A stretch of 39,326 nucleotides of DNA from Phenylobacterium sp. (GTDB lineage Bacteria; Pseudomonadota; Alphaproteobacteria; Caulobacterales; Caulobacteraceae): contig NZ_JAUXZW010000323.1 in assembly GCF_030693805.1 (NCBI RefSeq), forward strand, positions 1-39,326. The letters run 5' to 3'. The stretch's first letter is position 1, and the number at the start of each line of letters is the position of its first letter. Shown in pieces: positions 12,589 through 33,582 of this stretch. The notes under the pieces are model-generated. The model made no database searches. It saw nothing but the letters and a program-made list of their open reading frames with translations, and had not been told where the DNA came from. The translations under genes and the position numbers were made by a program.

Positions 12589-12890
12589 GTGCTCGATCTC
12601 CTTCTGCAGCGAGCAACCGACGCCTTTTGGACATCCGCTGGAAACTGCTCGCCCCCGAATTGAAGCGACTATCGCCTGGCTCACTTAATGTGGAGTAAAC
12701 CTGGAAGTATTCGACAAATTATATATATGGTTTACTTTGATTTACTATTAGGATCGATTAACCACGCCGCGGAAACAGGCCGGAATCGTCGATTTCACAT
12801 TTAAGACTCTCGCGCGCGCAAGGGCGCTGAAGCTTCAGGCTTTGTTGACCATTGCGGCGCATTTTTTGGCCCGAACAATCGGAGCTTCCC
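12589..12890. promoter_or_regulatory. Divergent regulatory region between pilA and the secretin-N-domain gene
   Basis: A 302-base gene-free region. From 12685 to 12765 it is strikingly AT-rich for this genome and contains TTTAC direct repeats (12731 and 12741), a run of alternating AT near 12720 and a TTAACC half-site (12758-12763). A GANTC methylation-type site lies at 12805-12809 and a 12-bp palindrome CTGAAGCTTCAG at 12827-12838. It must hold the pilA promoter on the minus strand and probably that of the 12891 gene on the plus strand. I could not place -10/-35 boxes with confidence. Confidence 0.6.
12685..12700 (-). promoter_or_regulatory. Candidate CtrA-binding box upstream of pilA
   Basis: TTAA at 12685-12688, seven bases, then TAAAC at 12696-12700. 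Read on the minus strand this is TTTA-N7-TTAA, one mismatch from the CtrA consensus TTAA-N7-TTAA. It lies about 97 bases upstream of the first pilin ATG. In Caulobacter crescentus pilA is directly activated by CtrA (established knowledge), so the position is reasonable; binding here is inference. Confidence 0.45.
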
Positions 12891-20127: not shown

Positions 20128-21171
20128 CTACTCCACCAGCGAGGCGGACTCCGTGCGCTTGTTCATCAGCAGATCGAACTCCGACCACACGCCGGCCTTG
20201 CCGTCCCATTGACCGCGGGTGGCGGCCTTGGAGTATTCCGTCGAGCGGGCTTCGAAGAAGTTGGCGTGCTCGACGCCCGACAGCATCGACTGCAGCCACG
20301 GCAGCGGGTTCTCCTTCACGCCGTAGGCCTCGGGCAGCGCCAGTTGACGCAGCCGCCAGTCAGCGACGAAGCGGATGTACTGCTTGATGTCGTCCGGGGT
20401 CATGCCCTGGACCTCACCGGCTTCGAAGGCCAGGTCGATGAACCGGTCCTCTAGGCCCACCACGGTCTTGCAGCAGTCGACGATGTCGTCGGCGACGCTC
20501 TTGGTCACCGCGCCGGTCTCGGCGTTGAACGCGTGGTACAGCTTGATGATGCCTTCGCAGTGCAGGCTCTCGTCGCGCACAGACCACGAGACGATCTGAC
20601 CCATGCCCTTCATCTTGTTGTGGCGCGGGAAATTCATCAGCATGGCGAACGAGGCGAACAGTTGCAGCCCCTCGGTGAAGCCGCCGAACATGGCCAGCGT
20701 TCGGGCGATGTCGGCATGGGTCTCGACGCCGAAGGTCTGCATGTAGTCGTGCTTGGCGCGCATTTCCTGGAAATCCAGGAAGGCGGTGAATTCGGAGTCC
20801 GGCATGCCGATCGTCTCGAGCAGCAGGGCGTAGGCCGCGATGTGGATCGTCTCCATGTTGGAGAACGAGGCCAGCATCATCTTCACCTCGGTGGGTTTGA
20901 AGACGCGGCTGTAGCGCTCCATGTAGTTGTCGTTCACCTCGACGTCGGACTGGGTGAAGAACCGGAAGATCTGCGACAGCAGCGAACGCTCACGGTCGTT
21001 GAGCTTGGTCGCCCAGTCCTTGCAGTCCTCGCCCAGAGGCACCTCCTCGGGCATCCAGTGGACCTGCTGCTGCTTCTTCCAGAACTCGTAGGCCCACGGA
21101 TACCGGAACGGCTTGTAGGCATAGGACGGGGTGAGCAGGCCAGGCAGGGCGCGGAGATTGGAAGCGGTCAC
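20128..21171 (-). CDS. nrdB: Ribonucleoside-diphosphate reductase class Ia, beta subunit (NrdB)
   Basis: A 347-residue di-iron protein that makes the tyrosyl radical for ribonucleotide reduction. Metal ligands are visible in TQSDVEVNDNY (Asp), NMETIHIAAY (Glu, His and, five residues on, the candidate radical Tyr), FTEGLQLF (Glu) and RDESLHCEG (Glu, His). I chose the GTG at 21171 (MTASNLRALPGLLTPSYAYKPF), with AGGA 9 bases upstream, because the residues in front of it are not family-like. It has no ATP-cone. The gene has its own upstream region with two NrdR-like boxes and is not directly joined to nrdA; an LpxR-like gene lies between. Confidence 0.95.
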   Translation of the reverse strand: MTASNLRALPGLLTPSYAYKPFRYPWAYEFWKKQQQVHWMPEEVPLGEDCKDWATKLNDRERSLLSQIFRFFTQSDVEVNDNYMERYSRVFKPTEVKMMLASFSNMETIHIAAYALLLETIGMPDSEFTAFLDFQEMRAKHDYMQTFGVETHADIARTLAMFGGFTEGLQLFASFAMLMNFPRHNKMKGMGQIVSWSVRDESLHCEGIIKLYHAFNAETGAVTKSVADDIVDCCKTVVGLEDRFIDLAFEAGEVQGMTPDDIKQYIRFVADWRLRQLALPEAYGVKENPLPWLQSMLSGVEHANFFEARSTEYSKAATRGQWDGKAGVWSEFDLLMNKRTESASLVE

Positions 21172-21229
21172 GGGGTGATTCCTGGAGCGCGGATGGGAAC
21201 GCTGAGGCCTCACGATAGGCCCCGAAAGC

Positions 21230-21276
21230 CGACAACATCTAGCGGCAAGTTGGCGCACCAACCCAACATCTTGTGA
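21230..21276 (-). promoter_or_regulatory. Tandem NrdR-like boxes upstream of nrdB
   Basis: Two 16-base sites share CAACATCT: 21230-21245 (10 of 16 matches to the NrdR consensus acaCwATATATwGtgt as I recall it) and 21261-21276 (12 of 16, CAACATCTTGTG). Their centres (21237.5 and 21268.5) are 31 bp apart, three helical turns, the spacing typical of NrdR operators. They lie 59-105 bases upstream of the nrdB GTG. NrdR represses ribonucleotide reductase genes according to ATP/dATP level. Confidence 0.6.
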
Positions 21277-21297
21277 ATTATCGCCTGGCGGCGAGAT

Positions 21298-22116
21298 TCA
21301 GTGGCGCGGCTTGATCGACAGCGAGAAGGCGACCATCGAGTCGTCGCGGGTCTCCTGACCAAAGATCATGTGCTGGCCTTTCACCTCGCGGTGCACATAG
21401 CCGAGCGAGGTCTGCATGGCGCCGCGGCGATAGCCGATCCCGACGTGGGCGTCGCCGATCAGGGCGCTGGAGGGATCTGTCGACCAGCCGGCGCGGTCCC
21501 AGCCGTCGTCGCTACGCAACATGTTGAGGCCGACGGCGCGTCCGCTGGCGGCGGCGAACAGGTACCAGCGTCCGTGATCGCCAAAGCTGGCGCCATCGCG
21601 AACGCCGATGTCGCCCAGTCGTTGGGCGACGTCGTCGTCGAGCCCTTTGCCCAGTCGCACCACGGCTCCAGCCTCGGCCTGGCCGCCCAGGTTGGACACG
21701 CCGACGCCGGCATGCGGCGAAACATCGAGGTCATAGTCGCCGGCGCCGACGCGCCAGGCGCCGGGCCAGTCCCGCACCACCGACACCTCATAGACCCGGG
21801 CGTCGAAGTCGGCGCGATCGAGATTCAGCGGCAGGCCGCCTGGTGAGCGCAGAACGCCGCCGACGCTGACCCGAACCGAATCGATCGCCGCACCGGCCTC
21901 GCTGAGGTGGAGTGTCGTCGTCTGCGCGCCGCGCCATTCGACCGGGCCATCGGCGACGGTCACTTCGCGAGACATCAGTTGTCCCATGGGATCTTCGAAA
22001 AGGGCGGCGGAGGAATTGACCGCCGTGGTTACGGATGTGGGGGTTTGCGGAGCGGCCATGGCCTGCCCTGCGATCCCTGCTCCCACGGCCAAGGCCGCTA
22101 CGGCCGCCAGCCCCAT
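21298..22116 (-). CDS. Outer-membrane protein, possible LpxR-like (DUF2219) beta-barrel
   Basis: A 272-residue exported protein: the signal peptide MGLAAVAALAVGAGIAGQAMA is followed by a beta-rich sequence. Segments HAGVGVSNLGGQAEAGAVVRLGKGLDDD, RWYLFAAASGRAVGLNMLR and GYRRGAMQTSLGYVHREVKGQ resemble the LpxR-like lipid A-modifying outer-membrane family, and it ends in a strand with SLSIKPRH. It is shorter than typical LpxR (about 320) and I cannot find the usual N-terminal catalytic segment, so enzymatic activity is doubtful. GGGGGAG precedes the ATG at 22116. It lies between nrdA and nrdB with no obvious link to nucleotide metabolism. Confidence 0.55.
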   Translation of the reverse strand: MGLAAVAALAVGAGIAGQAMAAPQTPTSVTTAVNSSAALFEDPMGQLMSREVTVADGPVEWRGAQTTTLHLSEAGAAIDSVRVSVGGVLRSPGGLPLNLDRADFDARVYEVSVVRDWPGAWRVGAGDYDLDVSPHAGVGVSNLGGQAEAGAVVRLGKGLDDDVAQRLGDIGVRDGASFGDHGRWYLFAAASGRAVGLNMLRSDDGWDRAGWSTDPSSALIGDAHVGIGYRRGAMQTSLGYVHREVKGQHMIFGQETRDDSMVAFSLSIKPRH

Positions 22117-22236
22117 CGTCTCTCCCCCTGCCCGGTCAACGCCACAGCTTGGAAGCGATCCTTCCACACACTTCCAACCGCAGGAAGTGCGCATGAGTTC
22201 CAAACCGCAGACGTGTAGCCCCTCGACCGTCCTCGC

Positions 22237-24099
22237 CTACTGACAGGCGAGGCATTCCTCGTAGTCGGTGCGTTCGGTGGAGGTGACAAGCGCCGCGATC
22301 ATTTCGCCGCCTGCGTGCGCCGCGCGCTGCACGGATTTCGAGCGCAGGTAGTAGAGCGACTTGCAGCCCCGCTCCCACGCCTGCCAGTGCAGCATGTGCA
22401 GGTCCCACTTATCGACATCGCCCGGCAGGAAGATGTTCACCGACTGCGACTGGCAGATATCCGGCGTCCGGTCAGCGGCGAGTTCGACCACCCAACGCTG
22501 ATCGATCTCGAAGGCGGTCTTGTAGACATCCTTCTCGTCGGCCGAGAGGAAGTCGAGGTGCTGGATCGAGCCTTCGTTCTCCAGGATCGAGTCCCAGATC
22601 GCCGGCGTGTTGCAGCCCTTCTCGTCCAGCAGGCGCTCGAGATACGGGTTCTTGACCGCGAACGAGCCGGACAGGGTCTTGTGCGTGTAGATGTTGGCCG
22701 GGATCGGCTCGATGCCGGCGCTGGTGCCGCCGCAGATGATCGAGATCGACGCGGTCGGGGCGATCGCCAGCTTGTGGGAGAATCGCTCCATCACTCCCCG
22801 CTCGGCGGCGTCGGGGCAGGCGCCGCGCTCGGCCGCCAGCGTGCGCGAGGCGGCGTCGCAGTGACGGCGCAGGTGCTTGAACAGCCGCATGTTCCACGAC
22901 TTGGCCAGCGCCGACTCGAACGGAACATTCTGGCTTTGCAGGAACGAGTGGAAGCCCATCAGGCCCAGGCCCACGGAGCGCTCGCGCATCGCCGCGTAGA
23001 CCGCAGGGTCCATTTCCGACGGGGCGCGGTCGATGAAGTCCTGCAGCACGTTGTCGAGAAAGCGCATGACGTCTTCGATGAAGGTCGGGTGGTCGCGCCA
23101 TTCCAAGAACTTCTCGGCGTTGACCGACGACAGGCAGCAGACCGCTGTGCGGTCCTGGCCGAGATGGTCGACGCCGGTATGCAGCATGATCTCGGAGCAC
23201 AGGTTCGACTGGCGCACCTTGAGCCCCAGCTCACGCTGATGCTGCGGCATGGCGCGGTTCACCGTGTCGGAGAAGATCAGGTAGGGCTCGCCGGTCTGCA
23301 GGCGGATCTCGAGGATCTTCTGCCACAGCGAGCGGGCGTTCACCTGGCGTACGACTTCGCCGTTCTTTGGCGAGCGCAAGGCGAAGGGCGCGTCGTCGCG
23401 CACGGCTTCCATGAACTCGTCGGTGATGGAGATGCCGTGGTGCAGGTTCAGCGACTTGCGGTTGAAGTCGCCGGAGGGTTTACGGATCTCCAGGAACTCC
23501 TCGATCTCCGGATGGTGGATGTCGAGGTACACCGCCGCCGAGCCGCGTCGCAGGCTGCCCTGGCTGATCGCCAGCGTCAGGCTGTCCATCACCCGGATGA
23601 ACGGGATGATGCCGCTGGTCTGGCCGGCGCCCTTGACCTTCTCGCCGATCGACCGGACGCCGCCCCAGTAGGTGCCGATGCCGCCGCCATTGGAGGCCAG
23701 CGCCACGTTCTGGTTCCACACGCCCATGATGCCTTCCAGGCTATCGGGCACGGCGTTGAGGAAGCAGGAGATCGGCAGCCCGCGCGATGCGCCGCCATTC
23801 GACAGCACCGGCGTCGAGGGCATGAACCACAGGTTGGAAATGTAGTCGTAGATCCGCTGGGCGTGGTCGGCGTCGTCGGCGAACGCGGTGGCGACGCGCG
23901 CGAACATGTCCTGGTAGGACTCGCCCGCCAGCAGATAGCGATCCTCGAGCGTCGTCTTGCCGAAATCGGTCAACTCGGCGTCGCGCGAACGATCCACCTC
24001 CACCTTGCGGACGAGCTGGAGCTGCGGTCGTTCGAACCTGCCGTTCGACCTCTGCGTGCTGTCGGAAACCGTACGGACTACCGCTTCACCGCCGCTCAT
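22237..24099 (-). CDS. nrdA: Ribonucleoside-diphosphate reductase class I, alpha subunit (NrdA)
   Basis: A 620-residue catalytic subunit that reduces ribonucleoside diphosphates. Active-site residues are present: C112 in PISCFLN, N299, C301 and E303 in NLCSE, the partner cysteine in AVCCLSSVN, the radical-transfer pair Y583-Y584 in SLYYLRSK and the C-terminal redox pair in EECLACQ. The N-terminus goes almost directly into the catalytic region (LEDRYLLAGESYQDMFARVA), so the roughly 90-residue ATP-cone of E. coli NrdA (761 residues) is missing. Two NrdR-like boxes lie upstream. The ATG at 24099 is supported by family length. Confidence 0.95.
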   Translation of the reverse strand: MSGGEAVVRTVSDSTQRSNGRFERPQLQLVRKVEVDRSRDAELTDFGKTTLEDRYLLAGESYQDMFARVATAFADDADHAQRIYDYISNLWFMPSTPVLSNGGASRGLPISCFLNAVPDSLEGIMGVWNQNVALASNGGGIGTYWGGVRSIGEKVKGAGQTSGIIPFIRVMDSLTLAISQGSLRRGSAAVYLDIHHPEIEEFLEIRKPSGDFNRKSLNLHHGISITDEFMEAVRDDAPFALRSPKNGEVVRQVNARSLWQKILEIRLQTGEPYLIFSDTVNRAMPQHQRELGLKVRQSNLCSEIMLHTGVDHLGQDRTAVCCLSSVNAEKFLEWRDHPTFIEDVMRFLDNVLQDFIDRAPSEMDPAVYAAMRERSVGLGLMGFHSFLQSQNVPFESALAKSWNMRLFKHLRRHCDAASRTLAAERGACPDAAERGVMERFSHKLAIAPTASISIICGGTSAGIEPIPANIYTHKTLSGSFAVKNPYLERLLDEKGCNTPAIWDSILENEGSIQHLDFLSADEKDVYKTAFEIDQRWVVELAADRTPDICQSQSVNIFLPGDVDKWDLHMLHWQAWERGCKSLYYLRSKSVQRAAHAGGEMIAALVTSTERTDYEECLACQ

Positions 24100-24146
24100 G
24101 ATCGAAAACCTGTTCTATGTTGTAACCGCGTCGAGCCCCCCGCCCG

Positions 24147-24193
24147 ACGCAACATGTTGTGGGCGAAGCACCTGCGCCACCCACATATGGGGA
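24147..24193 (-). promoter_or_regulatory. Tandem NrdR-like boxes upstream of nrdA
   Basis: The first site, 24147-24162, contains CAACATGTTGTG and matches 12 of 16 consensus positions. The second, 24178-24193, contains CCACATATGGGG and is weaker (8 of 16). Their centres (24154.5 and 24185.5) are 31 bp apart, the same spacing as in front of nrdB. They lie 48-94 bases upstream of the nrdA ATG. The shared spacing makes chance less likely, though the second site alone would not be convincing. Confidence 0.5.
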
Positions 24194-24345
24194 CACTTGG
24201 CTAATGACTCGTCAACGGCCGATACGGTCCGTCCCCAGCCTTTTTTCCTCAACGAAAGGTTAACGTCGGCTCTCTCCCCATGAGGATCAAGGGGTTGCGG
24301 GGAAGCGCGGCGGATCGCCTCACAACACTTTGAGTCCATGCAGGC

Positions 24346-27300
24346 TCACGGATCGAGGTTGAGCAGGCCAGGGTCGCCGCCTTGGGCTGCGATGTTCACC
24401 GACAAGGCGCGTTCCACCGCATAGCGAAGCAGGCTGTTGGGTCCGCCAGCCTTGGGCCCAGTGCCCGACAGCCCCTCGCCGCCGAACGGCTGGACGCCGA
24501 CCACCGCGCCGATGATCGACCGGTTCACATAGGCGTTGCCAGCCGGCACGCTCGCCAGCACCTGGGCGGCGAAGCCGTCCAGCCGGCTGTGGACGCCAAG
24601 CGTCAGGCCGTAGCCGGCGGCGACCAACGGCGCGGCCGCGGCGGCGATCTGGGCCGGGTCGTAGCGCACCACATGCAGGATCGGCCCGAACACCTCGCTC
24701 TGCAGGAAGGCGGCGTCCGGGATCTCCGCCAGGGTCGGGCCGAAGAATGTCCCGGCGTGCGGCGTCCCCAGACGGCGAACCACCTTTGCCTGGGCCTCCA
24801 GGCGGGCCAGGTGCGCATGCAGCGCGCCCAGCGCCTCCCGGTCGATGACCGGCCCGATATCGGTGGCGGCATCCGCCGGATCGCCCACCACGAGCGCGTC
24901 CATCGCCTCGGCGATCCCTGAGATCAATCCGTCCGCCGTCTCGTGCGGCGCGAACAGCAGGCGCAGCGCCGAGCAGCGCTGGCCGGCCGATCCAAAGGCG
25001 GAGACCAGGACGTCGTCGATCACCTGCTCGCGCAGGGCCGTGGTGTCGACGAACATCGCGTTGAGCCCTCCGGTCTCGGCGATCAGCGGGACGATAGGGC
25101 CGTCCCGCGCCGCCAGCGCACGGTTGATCGCCCAGGCGGTCTGCGTGCCCCCGGTGAAGGCGACGCCTGCGCACAATGGATGCTGGACCAACGCCTGACC
25201 CACCACGCCGCCATCACCCGGCAGCAGATGCAGGATGTCGACCGGCAGGCCGGCGGCGTGGAACAGGCGCACCGCCGCCGCGGCGATCACCGGGGACTGC
25301 TCGGCCGGCTTGGCGAGCACCGCGTCGCCGGCGGCCAGCGCCGCGGCCACCTGGCCGGTGAAGATCGCCAGCGGGAAGTTCCATGGACTGATGCAGGCGA
25401 ACACCCCCCGCCCTTTCAGCCTCAGGGTGTTGGTCTCTCCGGTCGGGCCCTTCAGCGTCACAGGCGCGTCGAACTGGCGCTCTGCGAGCATCGCGTAGTA
25501 GCGGCAGAAGTCGGCGGCCTCGCGAACCTCCGCGACCCCGTCGGCCAGCGTCTTTCCCGCTTCGCGCACGCACAGCGCCACCAGGTGATCACGGTCGTGC
25601 TCCAGAGCCTCGGCCATGGCGCGCAGCACTCGCGCCCGCGCCGCGCCGCCTTGGGCGTCCCAGGCTGGCTGAGCACCGGCGGCAGCGGCGAAGGCGGCCT
25701 GGATGTCATCGGCGGAAGCGCTCCACGTGCTTGCGACCACCCGATGAGGATCCGCCGGCGAAGACCGCTGCCTGCCCGCGCCCGCGCGCCGCTCGCGACC
25801 GCTGACGATCGGCCCTGCGCTCTCGGGGCTGCGATCGAGCTCGGTGATGGCGCGCGCCAACCGTTCGCGCTCCGCCGCCTGGGTGAGGTCGACGCCGGTG
25901 CTGTTGGCGCGGTCGGGCTGGAACAGGTCGGCCGGAAGCGGAATGCCAGGATGCGGCGCTCCACCGGACGCCTCCACCACCGCGATCGGATCGGCGGCGA
26001 CTGCGGCCGCCGGCGCGTTCGGGTCTGACAGGGCGTGTACGAAGGATGTGTTGGCGCCATTTTTCAGCAACCTGCGCACCAGGTACGGCAGCAGCTGTTC
26101 GTGTTCGCCAACCGGAGCGTAGACCTGCACCGGCAGTGGGCCGTAACGCGCCGTGGCCGCCTCATACAGCGTCTCGCCCATGCCATGCAGGCGCTGGAAG
26201 ACCGGCGTTGTTCCGGCCTGCTCGGCCATGGCGCGCACCGCCGCGACGGTGTGGGCGTTGTGCGTCGCGAACAGCGACCGCAGCGACGGTCCATTCGCCA
26301 GCAGTGCGCGGGCGCAGACCAGATAGGACAGATCGGTCGCCGCCTTGGTGGTGAACACCGGATATCCGGGCTGGCCCGCCACCTGCGCCCGCTTGATTTC
26401 CGCGTCCCAGTAGGCGCCCTTCACCAGGCGGACATGCAGGCTGCGACTACTCTCTTGCGCCAGGCCGTTCACGGCGGCGATCACCCGTGGCGCGCGTTTT
26501 TGATAGGCCTGCACGGCCAGGCCCAAGCCTGACCAGCCGGCTAGTGCCGGCGACGCGGCCAGCCGCGACAGCAGCTTCAGCGATAGAACCAGCCGATCAG
26601 CTTCCTCCGCGTCGATCGTGAGATCGGTTTGACTGTCGGCCGCCTGGCGCGCCAGCCGCTCCAGCCGCGGATAGAGGCCGTCGAAGACCTGGGCTTCGTG
26701 CAGGGCGTCGTAGCGCGACGACAGGGCGGAGAGCTTCACCGACAAGCCGTGCCTGCGGTCGGGCCCGAGCCGGCGGTTCTCCTGCGCAACCCGCTCCAGC
26801 GCACCGGCGTAGGCGGCTTCGTAGCGCTCGGCGTCGCCTTCGGTGCGCGCGCCCTCCCCGAGCATGTCGAACGAACAGACGAAGCCTTCCGCAGCGGCGC
26901 GACCCAGAGCCTGCTCGATGGATCGTCCGAGGACGAACTGTTCGCCCATGATCCGCAGCGCGGCGGCGATGGCGGCGCGGATCACCGGCTCGCCCACCCG
27001 GCCGGCCAGCCGGCGGACGAACGACGGCAGGTCCCGGCGCATCTCCGGATCGGGGTCCACCAGCCGGCCGGTGAGCATCAGGCTCCATGTCGAGGCGTTG
27101 ACCAACAGGCTGTCGGAACGGCCGACGTGGCAGGCCCAGTCGGCGGAGGCGATCCGCTCGGCGATCAGCCGGTCACGCGTGGCGGTGTCCGGCGTGCGCA
27201 GAAGCGCCTCGGCCAGGCACATCAGCGCCAGGCCTTCCTGGGTCGAAAGACTGAATTCCTGCAGGAAGCGCTGCACCACGCCAGCGCGGGAGACCGCACC

Positions 27301-33307: not shown

Positions 33308-33582
33308 CCCGATTTTAACTGACGCCTTTGTCAAAATTCAACGTCAGGCAAAAATTTGGCCCGCTGCGGGGGATAATCGCAGCGGGCCGAATTCCGAGCA
33401 ATTGCTCATATAGTAGGGCGTTTCCTCCCCGAAACGCCGGAGACGTCAGGACTAGCGCCGTCATGTCTCTCGCAGTTGTGACAAGATGGCAGTTTCGATT
33501 CCGAGTCAACACGGCGACCCGTGAATTGCATGCTATTTCGATGAGATTTTCGCGATAGCGCCAGTCTAGACGTCTCTCGGAC
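33308..33582. other. Structured intergenic region between convergent M13 peptidase and hisG genes
   Basis: This 275-base gap holds three inverted repeats: a 15-bp stem with one U-G pair at 33353-33393, a perfect 12-bp palindrome GAGCAATTGCTC at 33396-33407, and an 8-bp stem GGCGTTTC/GAAACGCC at 33417-33438. No gene on either strand is convincing. The first hairpin probably ends transcription. The rest could be the 3' end of a long transcript or a small RNA. Confidence 0.55.
33353..33393. terminator. Long hairpin terminator between convergent genes
   Basis: AATTTGGCCCGCTGC (33353-33367) pairs with GCAGCGGGCCGAATT (33379-33393), 15 bp including one U-G pair, across an 11-base loop. On the minus strand it is followed by TTTTTGCC, on the plus strand by no T-run. 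It lies 45 bases after the M13 peptidase stop and 190 bases after the hisG stop, so it can end both transcripts. Confidence 0.65.

Follow-up and report, generated by a model that had tools for sequence, protein, structure and literature searches.

Predicted NrdR operators at the separate nrdA and nrdB promoters of Phenylobacterium, and a third box pair before a class II ribonucleotide reductase remnant

The window analyzed here, a 39,326-nucleotide stretch that is a complete contig (C195) of the Phenylobacterium sp. genome G000 (a bin of 440 contigs, 97% complete), carries nrdA and nrdB, which encode the alpha and beta subunits of a class I ribonucleotide reductase (RNR). Each gene is preceded by two palindromic 16-bp boxes. 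Their sequence and spacing, their phylogenetic footprint and the presence of the repressor NrdR in related genomes mark both predicted operators as the canonical, ordinary NrdR type. We put the probability of the reading as a whole, in which each gene has its own promoter and its own canonical NrdR operator and the two are jointly repressed, at about 0.93. The boxes were scored with a single-box matrix built from 112 boxes in 56 of 86 promoters, all from genera other than Phenylobacterium, and are listed below together with the two genes.

20128 to 21171, minus strand: nrdB, encoding the beta subunit of class I RNR (347 amino acids); GTG start inferred; NF007186 (PRK09614.1-5), 563 bits against a cut-off of 237; PF00268
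21230 to 21245, minus strand: predicted NrdR box, gene-proximal, nrdB promoter, CCGCTAGATGTTGTCG; 14.2 bits
21261 to 21276, minus strand: predicted NrdR box, distal, nrdB promoter, TCACAAGATGTTGGGT; 19.1 bits, 31 bp from the proximal box
22237 to 24099, minus strand: nrdA, encoding the alpha subunit of class I RNR (620 amino acids); NF006577, 1024 bits against a cut-off of 620; PF00317 and PF02867
24147 to 24162, minus strand: predicted NrdR box, gene-proximal, nrdA promoter, CCACAACATGTTGCGT; 18.0 bits
24178 to 24193, minus strand: predicted NrdR box, distal, nrdA promoter, TCCCCATATGTGGGTG; 12.7 bits, centered 31 bp from its proximal partner; CCCCATATG shows strong conservation across the genus

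The initial annotation had placed four boxes in two pairs, 31 bp between centers, before subunit genes lying 1 kb apart. All four were located where it had put them, both spacings were exactly 31 bp, and the nrdA stop and nrdB start were 1,065 bp apart. It had also held that NrdR operators are two boxes separated by whole helical turns, which agrees with the 15-bp spacer, about three turns, at both genes. The proximal box ends 47 bp before nrdA and 58 bp before nrdB, and each of the four boxes retains a C followed nine bases later by a G. When the matrix was run over the window, the two pairs ranked first and second, at 33.3 and 30.6 bits; the next pair at 31 or 32 bp reached 8.9 bits, and the maximum in 200 dinucleotide-shuffled windows was 18.1 bits. 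These scores bear out the earlier claim that the repeated spacing is hardly a product of chance. The two pairs also kept their ranks when the spacing was freed from 20 to 49 bp. A degenerate pair pattern matched twice in the window and never in 100 shuffles, a result that counts for less because the pattern was designed after the window had been seen.

We analyzed the conservation of the pairs across 101 Phenylobacterium genomes, 99 of which had an nrdA match; 88 nrdA rows were carried on, with G060 merged from two pieces. In 78 of the 88 rows nrdB lay on the same contig and strand. With 77 of these and the window, 78 loci were scanned; G077 was scored apart, bringing the total to 79. The 10 genomes with nrdB on another contig, or with no nrdB row, were left uncounted, and pairs were seen at three nrdA genes and one nrdB gene among them. 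The gene order was nrdA first and nrdB second, on the same strand, in all 78 relatives having both on one contig. In 78/78 loci the whole-locus scan returned a single pair preceding nrdA and another preceding nrdB, with two weak extra matches overall. G077, whose nrdB is 19.5 kb away, has a pair at both genes, so that all 79 genomes with both genes on one contig carry them. The spacing was 31–33 bp in 78/78 genomes, and 31 or 32 bp for every nrdA pair. In G071, model R1 failed to recover the nrdB pair, whose matrix score was 19.0 bits.

The distance between the two genes varies in the genus from about 130 bp up to 19.5 kb. Small gaps were counted to the usual nrdB start and are at least 128 bp; that of G061 was set by estimate, its raw value of 47 bp coming from an alignment that starts ahead of the real nrdB start. 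Nineteen genomes in which nrdB starts only about 130–300 bp after nrdA retain its own pair. The persistence of the pairs across this range of gaps suggests that the operator, not the operon, keeps the regulation together.

With free spacing (20–49 bp) and an NrdR consensus, the best spacing was 31 or 32 bp in 64/72 genus nrdA and 58/72 genus nrdB promoters; for other genera the counts were 34/44 (nrdA) and 31/42 (nrdB), and shuffles gave about 6%. For six of the 78 loci tblastn missed one of the two genes, and these loci are absent from the 72-row tests. In the column statistics, the only ones for which redundancy among related genomes was reduced, information content was 2.0–2.1 bits in the box core, 0.3–0.6 in the spacer and 0.25–0.65 in the flanks. 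The refuting outcome named in the initial annotation, box bases varying as much as their flanks, was thus not observed. Across 68 aligned pairs from relatives, C4, G13 and C35 were invariant and G44 was conserved in at least 90%. A pair model built from 68 box pairs and run over the window's own genome recovered nrdB (E 8.5e-6), nrdA (E 1.1e-5) and one further place on contig C81 (E 0.006), the next new place having E 0.6. The pair is therefore rare genome-wide, with three places below E 0.01.

These features match what is known of NrdR. Its boxes have highly conserved C and G base pairs, which in the nrdRJ promoter of Streptomyces coelicolor stand at 9/18 and 40/49, 31 bp apart (PMC9110341). 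NrdR proteins bind box pairs with 14–17 bp spacers (PMC12051234). The 31-bp distance is a usual NrdR geometry, which points to NrdR and to nothing special at this locus. NrdR was found in 95/101 genomes of the genus set and 57/60 of the family set. G128, the nearest relative among the genomes compared (NrdA identity 100%, rounded), encodes an NrdR having D15 and R17, to which PMC9110341 ascribes DNA specificity.

Several points weigh against this assignment. The promoters that trained the matrix were chosen by their spacing of 31 or 32 bp, and the genomes, coming from a single genus, are not independent samples. Under free spacing, 8/72 genus nrdA and 14/72 genus nrdB promoters gave a best value other than 31 or 32 bp. 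The same NrdR proteins also bind pairs with 24–27 bp spacers (PMC12051234), so that spacing alone is no proof of NrdR. A sigma-70 consensus scan of positions 21100–24400 found no promoter and no assignable −10 element for nrdA. Finally, nrdR had no match in the genome bin that contains the window; an assembly gap is the likely cause, because the nrdR locus of G128 matches this bin at contig ends alone, those of C33 and C1.

Next to its predicted operator, the nrdA promoter carries two further elements, the second inferred.

24206 to 24210, minus strand: GANTC site (GAGTC), the CcrM methylation motif; TTGACGANTC in 76 of 78 genus nrdA promoters
24210 to 24215, minus strand: TTGACG, the probable nrdA −35 element; in 78/78 genomes a TTGAC lies no more than 60 bp from the distal box

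In the 76 genomes the GANTC is fused to TTGACG, with N being G, C or T and the other positions nearly invariant, and TTGAC starts 21–24 bp ahead of the nrdA distal 16-mer. A GANTC no farther than 60 bp from the distal box occurred at 77/78 nrdA and 5/78 nrdB genes, where 8.8 were expected for each. In other genera, TTGAC lay within 40 bp of the distal box in 43/43 scored promoters, but TTGACGANTC occurred in only 5/43 and a GANTC of any kind up to 60 bp away in 12/43; the methylation motif thus appears to have been added to a general −35 element. At nrdB, a −10-like motif, CTANAW, lies inside the proximal box in 49/78 genomes. A RAMA-domain protein, which we take to be CcrM, was present in 39/40 genomes and GcrA in 38/40, and the window's genome encodes both. 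The nrdA promoter, with a GANTC at a conserved position and these two proteins encoded, thus has the makings of a CcrM-controlled promoter.

A CcrM–nrdA link is already known from Caulobacter crescentus: Table 1 of PMC3973325 gives its nrdA, CCNA_03607, as down in the ccrM deletion strain, lists a GANTC within 200 bp of nrdA in 5/5 species, Phenylobacterium zucineum among them, and enters the gene as 'No' for the GcrA regulon and 'Yes' for the DnaA regulon. What the present analysis adds is the exact placement of the motif and its absence from nrdB. Because the motif is conserved at nrdA and lacking at nrdB, the two subunits are probably not controlled identically. The proposal of the initial annotation that nrdA and nrdB form one regulon fits as far as NrdR is concerned, with a pair at each gene; it falls short in that nrdA alone has a conserved CcrM motif and that a third gene, described below, also carries a pair.

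The position of the nrdA distal box raises the possibility that it is mainly a core-promoter element, the −10 region, that merely resembles an NrdR box. It starts 21–24 bp after the start of TTGAC, near the expected −10, is conserved in a C-rich form beyond the NrdR positions, and of the four boxes fits the NrdR consensus least (under 9/16), yet is strongly conserved in relatives. We consider this reading very improbable, since the nrdA pair lies at 31 or 32 bp in 78/78 genomes and the window's distal box retains the C and G positions and reaches 12.7 bits under the independent matrix. The box could also play both roles, which would not exclude NrdR. Least credible of all, on site searches that covered DnaA and CtrA, is that the boxes serve another regulator, for example of the DnaA, CtrA or LexA type: DnaA is reported as a direct regulator of C. 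crescentus NrdB (PMC3193534), nrdA is in its regulon in PMC3973325 Table 1, and DnaA-like sites are in excess near nrdB (15/78 against 1.4 in shuffles), but these sites are scattered in position with none within one mismatch in either window promoter, full CtrA sites number 15/78 at nrdA and 0/78 at nrdB (counts without a shuffle control), and the invariant positions and the 31–32 bp distance are those of NrdR.

Under NrdR control, nrdA and nrdB would be transcribed from separate promoters, each with two palindromic boxes three helical turns apart. When deoxyadenosine triphosphate (dATP) is high, an NrdR tetramer loaded with dATP and ATP would occupy both boxes, kink the DNA and restrict RNA polymerase, so that the two genes would be repressed jointly though their operators are separate; when dATP falls, NrdR would be released. 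We infer this protein mechanism from published work on other bacteria. At nrdA, the CcrM motif at the probable −35 would be expected to couple alpha-subunit synthesis to replication fork passage, and nrdB would lack this coupling. With these pairs, one textbook repressor would stand at each half of an essential enzyme whose genes have moved away from each other, and the split wiring, with NrdR at both and the CcrM motif at nrdA alone, would offer a clean test case of how a cell cycle driven by methylation combines with feedback from nucleotides on one enzyme. No ATP-cone was matched by Pfam in NrdA or NrdB at E 0.001 (NrdA matched PF00317 and PF02867 alone), so the enzyme may lack overall dATP feedback or have it in another form.

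We compared this arrangement with known systems. The NrdR operators of S. coelicolor, Escherichia coli and Listeria monocytogenes share with it the two palindromic boxes, the C/G pairs, the spacer of 15–16 bp and the place upstream of RNR operons (PMC9110341, PMC12051234). Streptococcus pneumoniae, the fourth of the bacteria compared in PMC12051234, also has a palindromic box pair upstream of an RNR operon, but with a spacer of 25–26 bp. Unlike these four, Phenylobacterium has a pair at the alpha and the beta gene each, even in the 19 genomes with a short gap, and its boxes are C-rich outside the core. It is the same kind of regulon as those of the Proteobacteria surveyed in PMC5343134 (186 regulons, 20 regulogs). 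The C. crescentus nrdA promoter region shares the GANTC, whereas in Phenylobacterium the motif has a set place, fused to TTGACG (76/78 against 5/43 in other genera), and is not at nrdB. A search of open-licence PMC papers for Phenylobacterium together with NrdR found none.

The third place found in the window's genome, at C81:897–938 (site listed as C81:892–939, locus L420), precedes a gene resembling the class II RNR NrdJ. We searched eight relatives of the genus, picked for few contigs or close kinship, and the pair recurred in 8/8 (E 7e-5 to 0.105), thus in 9/9 with the window's genome. With the independent matrix it was the best pair of each 4–9.5 kb locus in 9/9 (L412–L420), at 22.9–31.2 bits and a spacing of 31 or 32 bp. 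Other single model matches, in G106, G073 and G128 (E 0.2–0.85), look like chance.

The NrdJ-like frame appears to be the remnant of a reductase. It is open over 801–880 codons, stop to stop, in 8/8 genomes that have it complete; in the window's genome it is cut by the contig end. It matched PRK07562 (NrdJ, 1,222 positions) only in part, with E 1e-101 to 1e-115 in 5/5 scanned. Its profile is collinear with a 1,233-amino acid Bosea NrdJ, residues 364–747 aligning to 695–1104 (E 2e-117) and 107–215 to 275–381 (E 3e-6), and PF12637 (TSCPD) was found in 4/4 scanned; this collinear match and the TSCPD domain indicate common descent with NrdJ. The stretch between the aligned parts, where Bosea NrdJ has NPCSEY at 472, is mostly unrecognizable, with faint traces of the barrel. 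The active-site motif N-x-C-x-E occurred in 0/8 complete frames, compared with NPCSEY in Bosea NrdJ and NPCGEQ in the NrdJ of G153 and G106. Four tail cysteines remain in 8/8, where the last 45 residues of NrdJ hold six in Bosea and G153 and seven in G106. In Stackebrandtia nassauensis NrdJ, two of six tail cysteines apparently form a redox pair and four are predicted zinc ligands (PMC5704485). By alignment, the two missing from the remnant are probably the redox pair.

Selection on the remnant was estimated in seven genome pairs. The ratio of nonsynonymous to synonymous substitution rates (dN/dS) was 0.16–0.36 in the C-terminal part, which is under purifying selection, and 0.35–0.67 in the N-terminal part; these values suggest that the remnant is probably a working, non-catalytic protein. 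In the N-terminal part, R-C-x6-C is invariant in 8/8 (Cys156 and Cys163 in L414 numbering, alignment A2), and Bosea NrdJ has no cysteine there.

In the three genomes viewed on both sides, the third pair lies between the remnant and the divergent complex I gene NDUFA12, identified in G073 by Pfam and NCBIfam and in G128 and the window's genome by the same translated sequence. The operator might accordingly serve NDUFA12, with the remnant a bystander or a decaying pseudogene, as its lost catalytic residues and N-terminal dN/dS would allow. We regard this as unlikely. The pair ends about 45–50 bp before the likely remnant start, near the 47 and 58 bp seen at nrdA and nrdB; the frame is open in all eight genomes that have it complete, its C-terminal part is constrained, and NrdR targets are RNR genes.

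We tentatively propose instead, at somewhat under even odds, that NrdR represses nrdA, nrdB and a conserved, catalytically dead NrdJ descendant that has kept its operator and its TSCPD/zinc C-terminus, lost two tail cysteines and holds an invariant Cys-x6-Cys. Such a protein might serve deoxynucleotide supply non-catalytically, say by partnering or regulating a class I enzyme in which no ATP-cone is seen; its role is a guess. CCNA_01966 of C. crescentus, called NrdJ or B12-dependent RNR (PMC6538847, PMC5869019), may be of the same kind and not a B12-dependent reductase. If so, a reductase would have lost its chemistry and kept its repressor and its selection, an RNR pseudoenzyme more surprising than the nrdA and nrdB pairs, and it would be in question whether the B12-dependent reductase annotated in relatives of Caulobacter is real. 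Passages on NrdR in PMC5343134 make no mention of a catalytically dead NrdJ, and a search of open-licence PMC papers for NrdJ, pseudoenzyme and ribonucleotide reductase found none.

Catalytic-type NrdJ is present in some genomes of the genus, with NPCGEQ in the four genes examined and TIGR02504 in both of those run against NCBIfam. The initial annotation had suggested including nrdJ promoters, with those of nrdA and nrdB, in the matrix; the high matrix scores of nrdA and nrdB have no counterpart at NrdJ-type second reductases, where none of 20 upstream regions, drawn from part of the second reductase matches and including those of the four genes, had a pair (best score at 31 or 32 bp, 6.8 bits) or an Rfam family at gathering score. 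These genes were rejected as NrdR targets.

Autoregulation of nrdR was likewise rejected. Across 47 nrdR loci the best pairs scored 20.8 (L010), 17.8 (L218) and 15.7 bits (L020), the others lower, which indicates that it is not general. Comparative genomics of Proteobacteria describes NrdR as 'never found under autoregulation' (Leyn et al. 2016, PMC5343134). A possible box pair lies near the nrdR start in L010 (G041) and in L218 (G141).

One further open reading frame lies between nrdA and nrdB, ending 21 bp ahead of the nrdB distal box.

21298 to 22203, minus strand: LpxR-like outer-membrane protein; PF09982, E 2.2e-11

Within it is a lone NrdR-like palindrome, CAACATGTTG, at 21517–21526, with no partner box. 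Several low-scoring box-like matches at 12681–12731 fall in an AT-rich stretch and are read as composition. In a plasmid collection, the best 5 of 21 rows for the nrdA–nrdB region came from other genera and matched over the nrdA stretch; an alpha subunit was annotated in four of these five, and the fifth record had no annotation. Rfam also placed a CrfA match, a Caulobacter small RNA, at 33348–33471 on the minus strand, scoring 65 bits where the gathering score is 38.

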